Shown here piece by piece: positions 44,400 to 58,635 of a stretch of 64,000 nucleotides of DNA (position 1 is its first letter; each line of letters opens with the position of its first letter). Position numbers and translations under genes: made by a program. The notes under the pieces were generated by a model. That model saw only the letters and a list, made by a program, of their open reading frames with translations. It did not search any database and had not been told where the DNA came from. This DNA is from Okibacterium sp. HSC-33S16 (GTDB taxonomy: Bacteria > Actinomycetota > Actinomycetes > Actinomycetales > Microbacteriaceae): assembly GCF_024171565.1 (NCBI RefSeq), contig NZ_JALJZZ010000002.1, forward strand, positions 434,001 to 498,000, written 5' to 3'.

Positions 44400-45401
44400 A
44401 TGGCTTCCCTCTCCGTCGGCTATTCGGCGATGCTCTCGCAGTTCGCCCCGCAGGAGGCTGTCGCGCTCAGCGCGCTCGCCGAGCAGCACGGGTTCGATGG
44501 AGTGATGGCTGCCGACCACTTCCAACCATGGGTGCCGCAACAGGGCGAGTCATCGTTTGTCTGGAGTGTGCTGGCTGCGCTGGGCGAGCGCACCACCGGC
44601 AATTTCGGACCCGGCGTCACTGCGCCCACGTTCCGCTGGCACCCGGCCATGGTGGCGCAGGCCTCGGCAACGCTCGGTGCCATGTACCCCGGCCGGCATT
44701 GGCTCGGGCTCGGCTCCGGAGAAGCGCTCAACGAGCATATTGTCGGCGCATATTGGCCCGAAGCGCACGAGCGCATTAGCCGCATGTTTGAGGCGGTCGA
44801 CATCATCAAGAAGCTCTTCGCCGCGTCGCTGGCCGGTCGAGACGTCAAGCACTCGGGACCGTTCTACAAGCTCGAATCCACGCGACTGTGGACAATGCCC
44901 GCGGTTGCGCCGGAAATCCTCGTTGCAACATCCGGCCCCGTTACGGCCAAGCGTGCCGGCAAGACGGTCGACGGGCTCATCACGGTCGAAGCGCCGCGTG
45001 AAAAAATAGGCATGCTGCTGTCACGGTTCGATGAGGGCGCGCGCTCGATCGGTCGCGACCCGTCCACGATGACCAAGGTGTTGCAACTTCACCTGTCCTG
45101 GGCGTCGACCGACGAGGAAGCCCGCCGCAATGCGGTGGTGGAGTGGCCCAACGGCGGCATGCGGTTCCCGAAGTCCGACATCCGCTCGCCGTTCGAATTT
45201 GAGCAGATGGCGCGCATGGTCCGACCGGAGGACTTCGAGGGTCGGATGGTCATCTCCGCAGACCCCGACGTGCACCGGCGGCACATTCAGTCCTACGTCG
45301 ACCTCGGTTTCGATCGGATTTACTTGCACAACGTTGGCCGCAACCAGCGCGAGTGGATCGAAACCTTCGGCCGCGATGTTCTTCCCCAACTCTCCCGATA
45401 G
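44400..45401 (+). CDS. F420-dependent LLM oxidoreductase, Fgd-like
   Basis: 333 aa from ATG 44400; the frame is open upstream across xthA but spurious. Luciferase-like TIM barrel closely resembling the F420-dependent glucose-6-phosphate dehydrogenase family. MAADHFQPW keeps the Asp39, His40 and Trp44 active-site residues of mycobacterial Fgd1 (from memory), and GSGEALNEH keeps the catalytic Glu (residue 108 here). Phosphate-binding residues look partly different: the Lys in the Fgd1 EMEKAAD segment is Gln here (FEFEQMARM), while the following Arg is kept (EGRMVISAD). So it reduces F420 with G6P or a related substrate, or is a family relative with another donor. Eight nt upstream of cofE, forming one operon. 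Confidence 0.85.
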
Positions 45402-45409
45402 GTGGCAGT

Positions 45410-46189
45410 GTGCTGACAGTATTTGGACTCGACGGCATCGGTGAGATCACCGACGGCGACGACCTCGCAGCGGTGATCACGACGGCGGCGACCGGGCTCA
45501 TTGAGGACGGTGACATCCTCCTCGTGACCTCAAAGATTGTGTCAAAGGCTGAGGGACGGATGCGTCACGCCGCCGATCGCGAACAGGCGATCACCGATGA
45601 GACGGTGCGCGTTGTTGCGCAGCGCGAGCATCCGAACGGCATTACTCGAATCGTCGAAAACCGGCTCGGACTAGTGATGGCCGCCGCAGGAGTCGACGCC
45701 AGTAACACCCCGGACGGGACCATCCTGCTGTTGCCGGTCGACCCCGACCGCTCGGCGCGGGAGCTCCGCGCTCACCTCTTCGTCAAACTTGGCATTCGGG
45801 TGGGCGTTGTCGTCACCGACACGGTGGGTCGGCCGTGGCGCGACGGGCAAACGGACATCGCCATCGGAGCAGCGGGTATCCGCGTTATTGATGACCTTCG
45901 CGGACAGACCGATGCCTCGGGTCGGCTGCTCACCGTGACCGCTGCCGCCGTCGCTGATGAGCTTGCGGCGGCTGGCGACCTGGTCAAAGGCAAGACAAGT
46001 GGACGCCCGGTCGCGGTCGCCCGCGGCATGGCGCACTTGGTCACCGACGAAGACGGCCCCGGCGCTCGGGCACTCGTGCGCGACGCCGAGCGCGACATGT
46101 TCCGGCTCGGAAGTGATGAGGCGTATGCGGCCGGATACGCGGCGGGACTCGCTGCGGCGAAGGTGGCCCGAGCCACTCCCGCGGGCTGA
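45410..46189 (+). CDS. cofE: Coenzyme F420-0:L-glutamate ligase
   Basis: 259 aa from GTG 45410 (frame open further upstream inside the preceding gene). GTP-dependent addition of glutamates to F420-0, the last step of F420 synthesis. Conserved blocks: [18 protein letters not shown] and [21 protein letters not shown] followed by [17 protein letters not shown]. It is a stand-alone CofE without the C-terminal nitroreductase-like domain that FbiB proteins of mycobacteria carry. Other F420 synthesis genes (fbiC, cofC/fbiD, cofD/fbiA) are not in the window. Convergent with the F420-0 transporter genes. Confidence 0.93.
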
Positions 46190-46209
46190 GCGTTTCGTCA
46201 CCGCCGCAA

Positions 46210-46274
46210 CAGGAAATAGTGCCCAAATCAGGATACTTTCGCCGGGAATGTCCTGATTTGGCGACTATTTCCTG
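46210..46274. repeat. Long inverted repeat between converging F420 genes
   Basis: 24-nt arms (46210-46233 and 46251-46274) match at 22 positions and flank a 17-nt loop; the arms are AT-richer than the surroundings (CAGGAAATAGT, CAAATCAGGA). A further partial copy TCCTGATTTCGGCG follows the right arm. Acts at least as a bidirectional terminator; may be a dispersed repeat. Confidence 0.65.
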
Positions 46275-46315
46275 ATTTCGGCGTCACGCTGCATGAACGA
46301 ACCATATGAACTGAG

Positions 46316-47137
46316 TCAGGTGGTGTCGAACGCGATGAGCGGCCGCCCGGTGCGTGGGTGCGTCAACACGTCGGCGCGGACGCCGTAGACGTCGCCAATC
46401 AATTCTGGCGTGAGAACGGATGCCACGTCGCCAGCAGCGACGACGCGCCCAGCGCTCAGCACAATGACCGAGTCGGCGTACGCCGCGGCAATGTTGAGGT
46501 CGTGAAGAGCCGCGATGGCGGTAATCCCGGCCGCCGTCTGCGCCCGGACGAGTGAGAGCAGGCTGAGTTGCGCGCGCACGTCGAGGTGGTTGGTTGGCTC
46601 ATCGAGTAGCAACAGCCGCGGTTGTTGGGCCAGGGCGCGGGCGAGGTGTACACGCTGACGTTCACCTCCCGAGAGTGTGTCGAACGAGCGGTCGGCGAAA
46701 GCGCTCATGCCGACGGCGGCGAGGGCGTCCGACACGATGCGTCGATCGCCCTCGCTCTCGGCGGAGAAGCGGCCGATGTGCGGAGTGCGGCCAAGCATGA
46801 CCACGTCGGTCACGGCGAGTCCGGTGTCGCTGTCACCGTGTTGCTCGCTGAGGGCGACAATCCGGGCGCGGTCCCGTCGGCGGAGTCCGAGCAGGTCGGA
46901 ACCGTCGAACAGCACAGCGCCGCTCTCGGCGGGCAGTGTTCCGACGAGGAGGTGCAGGAGCGTCGACTTTCCGGCACCGTTCGGGCCGATCACCGCCCCG
47001 AACGAGCCGATCGGAACTGTGACGTCGACTCCATCGAGCACGAGTTTGCCGTCGCGCCGGAAGGAAACGCGACTGGCGGCCAGTGCGGAAACGTTCGCGA
47101 CAGCATCCGTCGTCGAATTTGTGGTGACGTCGGTCAC
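46316..47137 (-). CDS. Putative F420-0 ABC transporter ATP-binding protein
   Basis: 273 aa from GTG 47137 with GGAGG 5 nt upstream and a 4-nt overlap with the permease; the 650-aa open frame that extends to 48268 is spurious. FecE/BtuD-like ATPase: Walker A GPNGAGKSTLL near residue 50, signature DTLSGGERQRVHLARAL, Walker B LLLLDEPTNHLD, H-loop ALHDLN. TIGRFAM defines a cassette of this type (from memory TIGR03873, with TIGR03868 and TIGR03869), found in F420-using actinobacteria beside cofE and proposed to import F420-0. The gene order here, next to cofE and an Fgd-like gene, matches that description. Siderophore or haem import is the alternative. Confidence 0.8.
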   Translation of the reverse strand: MTDVTTNSTTDAVANVSALAASRVSFRRDGKLVLDGVDVTVPIGSFGAVIGPNGAGKSTLLHLLVGTLPAESGAVLFDGSDLLGLRRRDRARIVALSEQHGDSDTGLAVTDVVMLGRTPHIGRFSAESEGDRRIVSDALAAVGMSAFADRSFDTLSGGERQRVHLARALAQQPRLLLLDEPTNHLDVRAQLSLLSLVRAQTAAGITAIAALHDLNIAAAYADSVIVLSAGRVVAAGDVASVLTPELIGDVYGVRADVLTHPRTGRPLIAFDTT

Positions 47138-48222
47138 GAGATCCTCCGGGACTTGAGAAGCAGAAGCGCGAAGACTGGGGCGCCGACGACCGCCGTTAGG
47201 ATGCCGACGGGCAGTTCGCGCGGGTCGAACAGGGTGCGAGCACCGGTGTCGATCCAGACCAGGAAAATGGCGCCGGCAAGGGCGGAGAGAGGAAGAACGA
47301 CTCGGTTGCGCTGACCGGCGACCAGTCGGACCGCGTGCGGGAGGATCAGGCCGACGAAGCCGATCGATCCGGAGACCGAGACCATGGCGCCGGTGAGGAG
47401 CGCGGTCGCGGTGAGGAGGATCCAGCGGGTCGAGTTGACGCCGATGCCGAGCGCCGACGCGGCCGTGTCGCCGAACGCGAAGGCGTCGAGGGTGCGGCCG
47501 GTAAGCATCAGCGGGATGCCGACAATCACGAGGGCACCGATGCCGATCGCGACGGCAGGCCAGCGCGCGCCGCTCAGCGAGCCGAGTAGCCAGCTCAGGA
47601 TCTCCCGGTAGGTGTCTCCGGTGGCTGACCAGAAGATGATGAGGCTTGTGAGCGCTCCGAAAAAACTCGAGACGGCGAGGCCGGCCAGCACGGTGCGGGT
47701 CGGCGTGAGGGCACCGACCGCCCCGGCCAGCCCGAGCGTTGCCACGAGGGCGGCGATGGCTCCGGCGAAGGCGGCGACCGGGAGCACAACGCCGAGTCCG
47801 AGCAGGATCACGGCGACGGCACCGAGCGAGGCGCCGGACGACAGGCCGAGCAGGTAGGGATCGGCGAGCGGGTTGCGCGTGAGCGCCTGCATCACCGTGC
47901 CGGAGAGGGCGAGCCCGGCACCGACCGCAGCGGCCGTGAGCACGCGGGGCATCCGCAGTTCCCAGACGATGCCGTCGCGCAGGGGCGAGAGGGCTTCGCC
48001 GCCGAGTGCGGTCGGGGAAAAGCCGAGGTGGCCGAGAATCGAGCCCCACACCTCGGTCGCTCGAATGTCGGCCGGGCCAAAAGTGACGGTGACAACGAGC
48101 GACACGAGCAGGAGAACCGAGAGTGCGATCACCCACACGGCCGTCGGCAGCCCGCGTAACGCCCGGCGGCGGGGAGGGGTCAGCCCCGCCGCCGGTGCGT
48201 CGATCGCGGTTGTTGTCGTCAC
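47134..48222 (-). CDS. Putative F420-0 ABC transporter permease (FecCD family)
   Basis: 362 aa with nine to ten membrane helices. FecCD features: ELRMPRVLTAAAVGAGLALSGTVMQALTRNPLADPYLLGLSSGASLGAV and later SIGFVGLILPHAVRLVAGQRNR. Begins with a Thr-rich MTTTTAIDAPAAGLTP cytoplasmic segment. Overlaps both neighbours by 4 nt, so all three subunits are translationally coupled. Predicted importer channel for F420-0 on the basis of context; the family otherwise carries B12, haem or siderophores. Confidence 0.82.
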   Translation of the reverse strand: MTTTTAIDAPAAGLTPPRRRALRGLPTAVWVIALSVLLLVSLVVTVTFGPADIRATEVWGSILGHLGFSPTALGGEALSPLRDGIVWELRMPRVLTAAAVGAGLALSGTVMQALTRNPLADPYLLGLSSGASLGAVAVILLGLGVVLPVAAFAGAIAALVATLGLAGAVGALTPTRTVLAGLAVSSFFGALTSLIIFWSATGDTYREILSWLLGSLSGARWPAVAIGIGALVIVGIPLMLTGRTLDAFAFGDTAASALGIGVNSTRWILLTATALLTGAMVSVSGSIGFVGLILPHAVRLVAGQRNRVVLPLSALAGAIFLVWIDTGARTLFDPRELPVGILTAVVGAPVFALLLLKSRRIS

Positions 48223-49226
48223 AGGCCGAGCGCCTCCAGCTGAGTCGAGATCGACGTCGCTGCTTCAACGTTGCGCACCCCGGCCTCGCCGGTGGCGAAG
48301 GGAACGGTGACGTAGCGCTTGTTCACGACGGCATCGAGTTTCGCGGTGGCCGGGTTCGACTCGAGAACACCGATTTTCTTCTCGGCGCTGCCCCAGTCGG
48401 AGACGACCAGGACGATGACGTCGGGATTAGCGTCGACGACAGCTTCCCAGTTGAAGGAGGTCCAGGACTCGTCGACATCGGCAGCGATGTTGGTCAGCCC
48501 GACGGCGTCCATGATCATCTGCGGCGCGCCGGATCCGGCGCCAACGTAGGGCGTGTCTGACCCGCTCGAGTACCAGAGCGCGGTCACATCCTCGACCGGC
48601 TTGATCGCCTTGAGCTGCGTCTTCTGGGTGTCGACCAGCTCCGTCGCCGCATCGGTGACATTGAAGATCGAGCCGACCTCGCCAATGTGGGCGAAGACGT
48701 CGTCGAAACTCAGCGATTCCGGGGCGTATTCCGGTTCCTGGCATGCGGCGGGCGAGACGTAGGTGTTCACGCCGAGCGACTGCAAGTCAGCGCGCTCGCC
48801 GGCACCGTCGGCCGAGAAGTTCGATTCCCAACCGGCGTAGATGAAGTCGGGCTCCAGGTTGAGCACGGCCTCCTGGCCCGGCACCTTGTCGCTGATCACC
48901 GGAACGTCAGCACCACCGAGGTCTTCGGGCAACGGCCCGTCGGGGAACGCGCGCCCGATGAGCGCATCCTCGAGACCGAGGGCGAGCAACATTTCAGTGG
49001 TCGTCGACTTGATCGTCAGCACACGCTCGGGCGCCTTCTCGATGGTCACCTCGGTGCCGCAGTTGTCGAGGGTGAGCGGGTAGCTGGCGGCTGTTGGTGT
49101 CGCCGATTCTTTCGGTGAGACGGATGCCGCGGGGCTGGCACACGCAGACACCGCGAAAAGCGAGGCGGCAACGCCGATCGCGGCCAGGGGCCGTGCGAGA
49201 CGGGGAACGGAAAAAGGGGAAGTCAT
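48219..49226 (-). CDS. Putative F420-0 ABC transporter substrate-binding lipoprotein
   Basis: 335 aa from ATG 49226; the frame upstream to 49304 is not supported. Signal MTSPFSVPRLARPLAAIGVA with lipobox VSAC. Mature part is a two-lobed helical-backbone binding protein (FepB/BtuF type): TLDNCGTEVTIEKAPERVL, IKSTTTEMLLALGL, LNLEPDFIYAGWESNF, and the long joining helix DDVFAHIGEVGSIFNVTDAATELV. First gene of the cassette. I looked at the 148-nt leader for a cobalamin-type riboswitch or iron-box and found none, which mildly argues against B12 or iron. Ligand prediction F420-0 rests on the linked cofE and Fgd-like genes. Confidence 0.8.
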   Translation of the reverse strand: MTSPFSVPRLARPLAAIGVAASLFAVSACASPAASVSPKESATPTAASYPLTLDNCGTEVTIEKAPERVLTIKSTTTEMLLALGLEDALIGRAFPDGPLPEDLGGADVPVISDKVPGQEAVLNLEPDFIYAGWESNFSADGAGERADLQSLGVNTYVSPAACQEPEYAPESLSFDDVFAHIGEVGSIFNVTDAATELVDTQKTQLKAIKPVEDVTALWYSSGSDTPYVGAGSGAPQMIMDAVGLTNIAADVDESWTSFNWEAVVDANPDVIVLVVSDWGSAEKKIGVLESNPATAKLDAVVNKRYVTVPFATGEAGVRNVEAATSISTQLEALGL

Positions 49227-55259: not shown

Positions 55260-56693
55260 ATGAAGACCCTCATCAAAAACGGTACGGTCGTCAACTCAAC
55301 GGGCTCTGCTCCGGCCGATGTGCTCATCGACGGCGAGACGATCGCCGCTGTATTGGCACCCGGCTCAAACCTGCTCGGCTTCGACGTCGAGAACAACGTC
55401 GACACGGTGATCGACGCAAGCGGAAAGTACGTCATCCCCGGTGGAATCGACGCTCACACCCACATGGAGATGCCGTTCGGCGGTACCTTCGCGAGCGACA
55501 CCTTCGAGACCGGAACCCGCGCAGCCGCCCACGGAGGCACCACGAGCATCGTTGACTTCGTCGTGCAGTACGCGGGGGAGAACGTCCTCGACCAGTTCTC
55601 GCTCTGGCACGAGAAAGCTCGAAGCAACTGCGCCATCGACTACGGATTTCACCAGATTCTGAGCGACGTGCAGGACTCGTCGCTCACCGCGATGGACGAA
55701 CTCGTCAGGGAGGGTGTCTCGAGCTTCAAGCTGTTCATGGCCTACAAAGGAGTGTTCCTCTCCGACGACGGACAGATCGTCAAGGCGATGCAGCGAGCGA
55801 GCGATAACGGATCAATGATCATGATGCACGCCGAAAACGGCAGCGTCATCGATCTTCTGGTGCAACAGTCGCTCGAAGCCGGTAAGACCGCGCCGTATTA
55901 CCACGGCATCACGCGGCCCTGGCAGGCCGAAGAGGAAGCTACGCACCGTGCCATCATGCTGGCGAACCTGACCGGAGCTCCGCTGTACGTCGTGCACGTC
56001 AGCGCGAAACAGGCCGTCGAACAGATTGCCATGGCTCGCGACAACGGCCAGAACGTGTTCGGCGAAACCTGCCCGCAGTACCTCTATCTCTCGCTGGAAG
56101 ACCAGCTCGGAGCGTCCAGTGAGGAGTGGGGCGACTTCGAAGGAGCCAAATGGGTGTGTTCAACTCCGCTGCGGTCGAAGCATGAGGGCCACCAGCACCA
56201 CATGTGGCAGAGCCTGCGCACCAACGACATCCAGATGGTCTCGACCGACCATTGCCCGTTCTGCATGAAGGGGCAGAAGGACATGGGGCTCGGCAACTTC
56301 GCCAAGATTCCCAACGGCATTGGCAGCGTCGAGCACCGCATGGATCTGCTCTATCAGGGTGTTGTTGACGGAAAAATATCGCTCGAACGCTGGGTCGAAG
56401 TCACCTCAACCACACCGGCGCGCATGTTCGGCATGTACGGAAAAAAGGGAGTGCTGCAGCCCGGCGCAGACGGGGACGTTGTCATTTACAACCCCAACGG
56501 CCACACCTCGATCGGCGTCGGCAAGACCCACCACATGAACATGGACTACTCCGCTTGGGAAGGCTACGAGATCGACGGCCACGTCGACACCGTGCTCTCA
56601 CGAGGAAAAGTCATCATCGACGACAACCAGTACCTGGGCACCAAGGGCGACGGCAAGTACGTCCACCGCGGCCTCAGCCAGTACCTGATCTAA
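55260..56693 (+). CDS. Dihydropyrimidinase/hydantoinase
   Basis: 477 aa, ATG 55260 after GAGGAGG. Cyclic amidohydrolase: binuclear-metal His pair in GGIDAHTHMEMPFGG, carbamylated Lys157 in SSFKLFMAYKGV, metal His in MMHAENGS and VVHVSAKQ, Asp in VSTDHCPFCMKGQK. Opens 5,6-dihydrouracil or dihydrothymine to the N-carbamoyl amino acid used by PydC. ARMFGMYGKKGVLQPGADGDVV is the typical C-terminal block. Annotations of close relatives vary between phenylhydantoinase and dihydropyrimidinase; gene order supports the latter. Confidence 0.92.
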   Translation: MKTLIKNGTVVNSTGSAPADVLIDGETIAAVLAPGSNLLGFDVENNVDTVIDASGKYVIPGGIDAHTHMEMPFGGTFASDTFETGTRAAAHGGTTSIVDFVVQYAGENVLDQFSLWHEKARSNCAIDYGFHQILSDVQDSSLTAMDELVREGVSSFKLFMAYKGVFLSDDGQIVKAMQRASDNGSMIMMHAENGSVIDLLVQQSLEAGKTAPYYHGITRPWQAEEEATHRAIMLANLTGAPLYVVHVSAKQAVEQIAMARDNGQNVFGETCPQYLYLSLEDQLGASSEEWGDFEGAKWVCSTPLRSKHEGHQHHMWQSLRTNDIQMVSTDHCPFCMKGQKDMGLGNFAKIPNGIGSVEHRMDLLYQGVVDGKISLERWVEVTSTTPARMFGMYGKKGVLQPGADGDVVIYNPNGHTSIGVGKTHHMNMDYSAWEGYEIDGHVDTVLSRGKVIIDDNQYLGTKGDGKYVHRGLSQYLI

Positions 56694-56701
56694 GGGCATC
56701 C

Positions 56702-57718
56702 ATGGACTTCGGAGCAGTAATCCAAACCAACCCGCCCGCCTCGAGAACCGTCCACCTCGCCAAGCTCGCCGAGCAGTACGGCTTCAGCCATGTCTGGACG
56801 TTCGACTCCCACCTGCTCTGGCAGGAGCCATACGTTATCTACAGCCAGATTCTCAACGAGACCAAACGCGTCACCGTTGGGCCGATGGTGACAAACCCGG
56901 CCACCCGCGACTGGACCGTCACGGCATCCACCTACGCGACCCTCAACGAGATGTACGGCAATCGCACGATCTGTGGAATCGGCCGAGGTGACTCAGCCGT
57001 GCGCACGACAAACGGGGCACCGACCAACCTGAAGACACTGCGGGAATCCATCCACGTCATCCGTGAACTGGCTAACTCCCGTCCGGTCGAATACAACGGT
57101 GCCACGGTGCAATTTCCGTGGAGCGTGGGTTCACAGCTGGACGTTTGGGTTGCGGCGTACGGCCCACTTGCGCTGAAGCTGACCGGCGAGGTGGGCGACG
57201 GCTTCATCCTGCAACTCGCAGACGTCGACATCGCGAAATGGATGATCAAGACGGTTCGGGATGCTGCGGAGAAGGTCGGTCGCGATCCGATGTCGATCAA
57301 ATTTTGTGTCGCCGCGCCGATGTACATTGGCGACGACTGGGAGCACATGCGAGACCAGTGCCGCTGGTTCGGCGGCATGGTCGGCAACCACGTCGCCGAC
57401 ATCGTCGCCAAGTACGGCACCAGCGGCGCCATTCCCCAGGCGCTCACCGACTACATTCAGGGCCGCGAGTCCTACGACTACAACGAGCACGGTAAGGCGG
57501 GCAACAGTCACACCAGCTTCGTTCCTGACGAGATCGTCGACCGATTCTGCCTGCTCGGGTCGGCGAGCGACCACATCGAGAAGCTCGAAGAACTCAAGAG
57601 CATCGGCGTTGACCAATTCGCCGGATACCTCCAGCACGACAACAAGGAAGAGACGCTTCGGGTATACGGCGAGACCGTGATCCCGGCCCTCCGAGAAAAG
57701 ATCGTGGCAACGGCATGA
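56702..57718 (+). CDS. F420-type LLM oxidoreductase of the hydantoinase operon (TIGR03842-like)
   Basis: 338 aa from ATG 56702, 8 nt after the previous stop; frame extension upstream is spurious. Luciferase-like monooxygenase fold: MDFGAVIQTNPPASRTVHLAKLAEQYGFSHVWTFDSH, GPMVTNPATRDWTVTASTYATLNEM, ICGIGRGDSAVRT, VWVAAYGPLALKLTGEVGDGFIL. Related to Mer-like F420 enzymes. I recall TIGR03842 as this family, of unknown function. Its position between dihydropyrimidinase and a dedicated importer, with no PydA-type dehydrogenase in the operon, suggests reduction of uracil/thymine to the dihydro form with F420H2, or handling of a modified pyrimidine (inference). An FMN-dependent role cannot be excluded. 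Confidence 0.8.
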   Translation: MDFGAVIQTNPPASRTVHLAKLAEQYGFSHVWTFDSHLLWQEPYVIYSQILNETKRVTVGPMVTNPATRDWTVTASTYATLNEMYGNRTICGIGRGDSAVRTTNGAPTNLKTLRESIHVIRELANSRPVEYNGATVQFPWSVGSQLDVWVAAYGPLALKLTGEVGDGFILQLADVDIAKWMIKTVRDAAEKVGRDPMSIKFCVAAPMYIGDDWEHMRDQCRWFGGMVGNHVADIVAKYGTSGAIPQALTDYIQGRESYDYNEHGKAGNSHTSFVPDEIVDRFCLLGSASDHIEKLEELKSIGVDQFAGYLQHDNKEETLRVYGETVIPALREKIVATA

Positions 57719-58635
57719 CCGCCGAAAACCTCGCCCCAGCGATCCGTCGGCGCCGTGGCGCGCCGGCTCGCGAACTGGTGCGCTGGGGTTATGGATTACT
57801 CGGAATCCTCGTGATCGCCGCGGCCTGGGAGCTGTACAAGTTTCTGGGTCCGGCGGACGGCGTCGTGATCGCTGGGGCCCGGGTTCTTCCTCGCACGACC
57901 GACCTGGCCATGCCCCATACCTGGGACATGGTGGCACGGCTGTTCGACCCGGTCACCCGCTCGGCCACGGCCAATCCGCTGTGGCTCGAGGTGGCACTCG
58001 CAGCACTCACCACCCTGGGCATCGCTGCGGTCGGCTGGCTGGTCGGAATCGTGATCGGCTTCCTGCTCGCACTCGTGATGCAGCGGTGGCGGCTCGCCGA
58101 GTGGGGACTCCTGCCCTGGATCATCCTCAGCCAGACCGTGCCCCTGATCGCGTTCGCCCCCATCGTTCGAAGCTGGGGCTCTCGGATCGAAATCGGCGCG
58201 TTCGAATGGCAGGACTGGATGAGCGTCGCTGTAATCGCGTCGTACCTCGCGTTCTTCCCGATCGCGGTCGGCGCCCTCAAGGGACTGCAATCGCCGGATG
58301 TCATTCACACCGAACTGATGCGCACCTACGGCGTTGGCTGGTGGAAGACGCTTCTGAAACTGCGGATTCCGGCATCCGTTCCGTACCTTCTTCCTGCTCT
58401 CCGGCTTGGCGCGGCCAATGCCGTGGTCGGTGCTGTCGTCGCCGAGGTGTCGACGGGAATGCAGGGCGGCATCGGGCGCATCCTCATCCAATACGCGGGT
58501 CAGGCTAGCGGCGACCCCTCGAAAGCATGGGGGCCGATCTTCGGCTCGATCGTGCTCGGTCTCGCTGCGGCAGGCTCCGTCGCCATCCTCGGCGCCATTC
58601 TCAGGAACTACCGACGTGTGGAGATCAACGCGTGA
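57715..58635 (+). CDS. ABC permease of the pyrimidine operon (first)
   Basis: 306 aa, ATGA overlap with the oxidoreductase gene. Six to seven membrane helices, SsuC/ThiX class, with the coupling motif HTELMRTYGVGWWKTLLKLRIPASVPYLL. A ~40-residue periplasmic segment after the first helix (VVIAGARVLPRTTDLAMPHTW) is longer than in typical SsuC. Pairs with the second permease at 59474 into a heterodimer. Predicted cargo is a pyrimidine, hydantoin or ureido compound. Confidence 0.87.
   Translation: MTAENLAPAIRRRRGAPARELVRWGYGLLGILVIAAAWELYKFLGPADGVVIAGARVLPRTTDLAMPHTWDMVARLFDPVTRSATANPLWLEVALAALTTLGIAAVGWLVGIVIGFLLALVMQRWRLAEWGLLPWIILSQTVPLIAFAPIVRSWGSRIEIGAFEWQDWMSVAVIASYLAFFPIAVGALKGLQSPDVIHTELMRTYGVGWWKTLLKLRIPASVPYLLPALRLGAANAVVGAVVAEVSTGMQGGIGRILIQYAGQASGDPSKAWGPIFGSIVLGLAAAGSVAILGAILRNYRRVEINA

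Follow-up and report, generated by a model that had tools for sequence, protein, structure and literature searches.

We identified a three-gene cassette in the actinobacterium Okibacterium sp. HSC-33S16 that probably encodes a deazaflavin importer of the ATP-binding cassette (ABC) type, its most likely substrate in this CofD-less genus being F420-0 from neighbouring F420 makers. The cassette adjoins cofE within the 64,000 nt analysed here (G000:C2:434001-498000, hereafter the window), which are part of a 3.23 Mb genome in 10 contigs that is 100% complete. Computation gave the gene set and its coupling, the lack of any CofG, CofC or CofD match, the presence of F420 users and a family-wide pattern in which the importer takes the place of FbiC.

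From these sequence data we infer which ligand is bound, that it moves inward and that CofE traps it. Neighbouring F420 makers would release F420-0, which the lipoprotein binding protein would capture and the permease and ATPase would carry inward. CofE would then add glutamates and thereby trap the cofactor as F420-n, Fgd (encoded outside the window) would reduce it, and FDOR-A and LLM enzymes would use it, perhaps including the TIGR03557 enzyme encoded next to cofE. A first-pass annotation, made from the sequence of the window, had proposed F420-0 uptake and trapping by polyglutamylation, and the proposal gains support from the profile searches, the absence of synthesis-model matches, the F420 users and the mutual exclusion of importer and FbiC described below.

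F420 use and F420 synthesis in the genome

The whole genome gave no match to CofG (TIGR03550) at E 0.001, nor to CofD (PF01933) or CofC (PF01983), while the same searches matched in 11, 10 and 6 of 14 control genomes, respectively. The first-pass annotation had suggested a genome-wide search for fbiC, cofC and cofD, a complete F420 synthesis set elsewhere being what would speak most against it; no such set was found, none of the models having a match in this complete assembly. F420-dependent enzymes are present. A true Fgd (699.3 bits) is encoded on the same contig outside the window (C2:416768-417664), and the genome also has a TIGR03557 protein (484.4), two TIGR03560 proteins, a TIGR03842 protein (590.9 bits) whose gene lies within the window, and four genes of the FDOR-A family (PF04075), which none of the 14 control genomes contains. 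The picture is the same in all six genomes sampled from the genus, this one among them: each has 3 or 4 FDOR-A genes and both CofE and the importer over cut-off, and none has CofG or CofD over cut-off.

Family membership of the importer

The binding protein and the permease pass TIGR03868 and TIGR03869 (Table 1), NCBIfam models that are both named "putative F420-0 ABC transporter". We take the description of these models and of the ATPase model TIGR03873 to be that of a putative F420-0 transporter linked to cofE where the other F420 synthesis genes are absent. The cassette has the same three-gene order and the same linkage to cofE, in a genome without a match to the other F420 synthesis genes. 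Among the named genomes, M. zhadangensis has the closest binding protein (87%). The locus thus belongs to a known kind, predicted but unproven, and the marine actinobacterium PHSC20C1 (L144) carries the same arrangement: genes, order and orientation (binding protein, permease and ATPase convergent with cofE and the LLM gene) are shared, as is Ser276, discussed below, although the binding protein is only 58% identical to that of the window. The same order was found in 23 of the 75 importer loci of the family and in four Mycetocola records.

Replacement of FbiC by the importer

We surveyed 249 genomes of the family, own genome included, using the profile cut-offs, which CofG passed in 56 genomes and CofE in 136. 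The importer was counted in 75 genomes, comprising 70 binding proteins over cut-off and 5 added by hand, namely those of G119, G174 and G223 (326-330 bits), that of G022, which is cut by contig ends, and that of G049, which is in two pieces. Among the 136 cofE genomes, 75 have the importer only, 55 have FbiC only, none has both and 6 have neither, and thus the importer replaces FbiC across the family. CofE is present in every one of the 75 importer genomes, and in all 68 of those with both genes on the same contig, cofE and the binding-protein gene are convergent and no more than 17 kb apart. Both solutions occur in different species of the same genus in four genera (g21, g37, g52 and g76). 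In a survey of 395 genomes of the order, 98 genomes had the importer and 62 had CofG over the cut-offs.

The six genomes with CofE and neither FbiC nor an over-cut-off TIGR03868 importer are G016, G027, G053, G153, G163 and G177, all but the last of which also have CofD; they may have another uptake route or genes that were missed. The sole CofG genome without CofE over cut-off is G198, of genus g84 in the same family. Its CofG is partial with one internal stop, its CofE and CofD are also partial, and it has no importer over cut-off, whereas the three other sampled g84 genomes do have one; it may represent F420 loss in progress or a poor assembly. We also observed a second group of binding proteins, scoring about 190-233 bits on TIGR03868, in G255, G294, G304, G358, G384, G397, G402, G164 and others. 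The eight named genomes have CofG over cut-off, and the substrate of this group is perhaps siderophore-like.

Retention of cofD in importer genomes

The importer genomes differ in whether they keep cofD. It is retained in 48 of the 75 (47 over cut-off and a split gene in G009), while 27, the window's genus included, gave no CofD match, an absence that is less sure in G022, G044 and G107 because their assemblies break at or near the importer. In the 44 genomes with cofD and the binding-protein gene on one contig, the two are always on the same strand, and they are within 3.1 kb of each other in 41. Of these close cases, 31 have cofD in line with the importer (29 after it, 2 before) with no other marker gene between them. 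The other 10 have cofD before the importer and cofC between the two on the opposite strand, so they are neighbours rather than one operon. A locus search found cofC in 40 of the 75 importer loci.

A genome with cofC and cofD and without FbiC needs FO rather than F420-0, and the 48 importer genomes that keep cofD therefore probably import FO. It follows that the F420-0 label should not be transferred to all relatives: it fits poorly for the larger importer group of the family survey, which is linked to cofC-cofD. The F420-0 label of the first-pass annotation stands as the best guess for the window's genus, which lacks both cofC and cofD, and is doubtful as a label for the importers at large.

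Residue 276 of the binding protein

One residue of the binding protein separates most of the two groups. Numbering follows the window's protein, 72 of the 75 family proteins were long enough for the comparison, and the split cofD of G009 was counted as present. Serine occupies position 276 in 17 of the 25 binding proteins from cofD-less genomes and in 0 of the 47 from cofD-bearing ones, and the corresponding figures for lysine or arginine at position 283 are 17 of 25 and 1 of 47. Site 276 was picked after viewing the family data, and only the order loci are held-out. This held-out set consisted of 62 of 82 order loci outside the family together with G581; two of the 63 gave no usable binding protein, and the cofD status was read within the locus stretch only (about 19 kb in most). 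Fifteen unclear order loci (12 Ala, 3 Ser), G581 among them, were set aside. Where the stretch showed cofE but no cofD, 31 loci had Ser and 1 had Ala, against 2 with Ser and 12 with Ala where cofD was visible (p 3e-8, without correction for ancestry).

We also compared independent pairs on a combined tree of both sets, the discovery set included, from which the tested columns had been removed. Across the 12 pairs that differ in cofD, serine went with the absence of cofD in 8.2 on average and the opposite way in none (median p 0.0078), compared with 5.5 pairs and 0.1 opposite for the next best of 15 candidate sites. The family-only tree was weaker, with 5.0 of 7 pairs going the same way, 0 opposite and a median p of 0.0625.

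In the AlphaFold2 model (pLDDT 94), Ser276 starts the loop after strand 231-236 (model numbering). It is next to Trp278 and Lys284; neither of these varies among the 72 family proteins, and Trp278 is nearly constant in a set of 48 proteins. Loops of such placement commonly hold ligands in the binding-protein fold. The extra hydroxyl and a lysine would suit the phospholactyl group, which is present in F420-0 and absent from FO. As a rule, Ser276 has exceptions in both directions: Ala is found in 8 of the 25 cofD-less family binding proteins and in Devosia, which has no cofD within 10 kb, and Ser occurs with cofD in view in 2 of 14 order loci and in Arthrobacter hankyongi L136.

Taken together, there is about an even chance that the family comprises two importers, one for FO, with Ala276 and beside cofD and cofC, and one for F420-0, mostly with Ser276, the latter arising repeatedly upon loss of cofC-cofD, and that F420 precursors are thus a shared good, spread into Devosia. 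On this two-class reading more cofE genomes import than have FbiC, and F420 precursors would therefore be shared among actinobacteria. Deazaflavins from neighbours would then sustain 75 of the 136 cofE genomes of the family, against 55 of the 136 with FbiC.

As a separate observation, the alphaproteobacterium Devosia subaequoris (L163, 8098-13757) has fgd, cofE and the genes for the binding protein, permease and ATPase, plus an LLM gene of TIGR03842, in a single series that all point the same way. Provided that the contig is not contaminating DNA, this would be a compact salvage operon outside the actinobacteria. PF04075 (FDOR-A) gave no match in the Devosia subaequoris genome.

Evaluation of alternative substrates

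Several results weigh against F420-0 import by the window's cassette. The association between importer presence and FbiC absence in the family (Fisher p 1e-31) is not corrected for shared ancestry, nor is the deficit of genomes with both in the order (5 observed against 15.4 expected, p 6e-4). Given these five of the 395 order genomes (G437, G521, G539, G566 and G581), the exclusion is strong without being absolute. Two of them, G539 and G566, have the importer beside cofD and cofC, and FbiC elsewhere. The ATPase, in which the cassette departs from the importer described by TIGR03868, TIGR03869 and TIGR03873, is 4.9 bits short of the TIGR03873 cut-off of 372.4. TIGR03873 is nevertheless its best family among the models listed, by over 100 bits, and since only 2 of 10 compared ATPases (several trimmed to the aligned part) pass, the cut-off is a strict one. 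The profile check suggested by the first-pass annotation was thus positive for two of the three proteins, the ATPase narrowly missing. Further, FO may be the substrate more often than F420-0, because cofD is retained alongside most importers of the family, and the sequence does not separate F420-0 from F420-1 as the ligand. The LLM gene beside cofE, finally, has its best E-value among the models listed with TIGR03885, a family named as FMN-dependent, although under the cut-off (307 against 398.7); this enzyme may hence use FMN.

Among the alternatives, import of tailed F420-n (F420-1 or longer), with CofE merely lengthening the tail, is unlikely yet the best of them. Lysing F420 makers would release tailed F420, and the retention of CofE throughout the importer genomes is compatible with tail extension. 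A foreign tail would, however, make CofE dispensable, and no surveyed importer genome of the family has lost it.

Somewhat less probable still is that the cassette takes up FO and that an unrecognised pathway, in place of CofC and CofD, converts this FO into F420-0. Such a reading has in its favour the many importer relatives with cofD, mostly adjoining the importer, and the leakage of FO by producers: passages of PMC3012119 describe FO in the medium of M. smegmatis overexpressing FbiC, attributed to a lack of charge, and a section of PMC11104420 reports FO in the supernatant of Mycetohabitans rhizoxinica. It is opposed by the lack of any CofC or CofD match in the own genome, by CofD being found in 0 of the 6 genus genomes and by the Ser276 of the binding protein, which most cofD-less lineages share.

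That the cassette is simply a haem, B12 or siderophore importer adjoining cofE by chance is very improbable. Binding proteins for these ligands, of the same fold class, account for the majority of the 50 listed structural matches, and with the haem model the ATPase reaches 247.5 (cut-off 261). Every listed model of this kind (BtuC/BtuF, PRK13548, FecE, EitA/EitC) is nevertheless under its cut-off, the ATPase result being limited to the best 25 of 187 families in the first scan, and no riboswitch was found in the window. An importer of this type would also not be expected to be linked to cofE, or to take the place of FbiC, in many genera. F420-0 accordingly stays the preferred substrate for the window's importer, and is probable rather than certain.

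Organization of the locus

The features of the locus are given in Table 1. As the first-pass annotation had described, the LLM gene and cofE converge on a translationally coupled cassette, which is seen in the strands and coordinates and in an overlap of 4 bases both between the binding-protein and permease genes and between the permease and ATPase genes. The inverted repeat lies between the two units and is a possible two-way terminator. No RNA family from Rfam matched at the gathering threshold across the window, and hence there is no cobalamin riboswitch in the importer leader, in agreement with the earlier remark that no B12 element was visible there.

Table 1. Coordinates of the cofE and importer genes and of associated features in the window
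Feature	Position	Strand	Evidence
LLM-class oxidoreductase, TIGR03557 F420-dependent family, not Fgd	44400..45401	+	TIGR03557, 272.8 bits
cofE, stand-alone F420-0:gamma-glutamyl ligase	45410..46189	+	TIGR01916, 234.9 against 180.65
24-nt inverted repeat	46210-46233/46251-46274		arms 92% complementary, 17-nt spacer
Importer ATPase	46316..47137	-	TIGR03873, 367.5 bits
FecCD-type permease	47134..48222	-	TIGR03869, 496.9 over 437.35; PF01032
Substrate-binding protein, probably lipoprotein	48219..49226	-	TIGR03868, 448.9 against 392.4
Ser276 codon of the binding protein	48399..48401	-	residue tracks cofD absence in relatives

The cofE gene starts at a GTG codon, preceded by AGGTGG, 8 bases after the LLM gene. 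The protein resembles the solved CofE structures 2g9i, 7uld and 2phn (E about 1e-36). Its match to NF009810 covers positions 12-260 of 449, indicating that it has no C-terminal domain, and together with the TIGR01916 score this agrees with the initial description of a stand-alone cofE.

The LLM gene passes TIGR03557 (cut-off 210.4), so the earlier label "Fgd-like" holds for the family and not for the function; Fgd itself was ruled out, the TIGR03554 Fgd equivalog giving 220.2 against a cut-off of 420. Compared with Fgd (3B4Y), a member of the same LLM family, 10 of the 21 listed Fgd1 positions are identical, including H40, W44, E109, N112, K259 and R283. Glu13 is replaced by Ser and Lys198, presumably a phosphate-binding residue in Fgd1, by Pro. 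The closest solved structure is 9hav, a "Luciferase family protein" (422 bits), for which our literature search found no paper mentioning the code. Of the 66 family loci that show cofE, 53 have an LLM relative 3-155 bp from it and in the same orientation; among the 38 named loci that show cofE, 24 have one within 250 bp. This conserved closeness identifies the pair as a real unit. A small gene that we take to be coaD-like is found near the pair in L061 (2765-3256) and L055 (15681-16169), and 24 of the 75 loci contain members of its cluster, in a clustering of open reading frames that was swamped by shadow frames.

Elsewhere in the window (55260-58635), the TIGR03842 F420-class LLM gene follows a presumably hydantoinase-like gene and precedes a presumably permease-like one. 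A similar gene pair adjoins the importer in the relative L061.

Known systems and implications

A relative of the window's binding protein, from Jonesia denitrificans, has been deposited as a periplasmic binding protein without a functional name (PDB 4MLZ), and our literature search found no paper mentioning it by code. Our search on F420 uptake, which covered few subscription journals, revealed no F420 or FO importer in the portions of text available, in line with the first-pass annotation, which knew of no direct proof of transport. None is described in the sections seen of PMC8498797, PMC12855090, PMC3012119, PMC8571402 and PMC11104420. The words salvage, uptake, scaveng- and excret- are absent from the accessible part of the long 2021 F420 review PMC8498797, which does raise the possibility that an ABC transporter exports 3PG-F420 in Paraburkholderia (now Mycetohabitans) rhizoxinica. 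As far as these searches go, the two classes within the importer family and the commonness of import among the cofE genomes of the family are new.

The split between FO and F420-0 is sharply testable, with two binding proteins, two ligands, one candidate residue and the structure of a relative (4MLZ) at hand. The sharing of B12 among bacteria is a comparable dependence. If the module works as proposed, many actinobacteria would be auxotrophs for F420 precursors that depend on their neighbours, and fbiC alone would mislead on the F420 capacity of actinobacteria.

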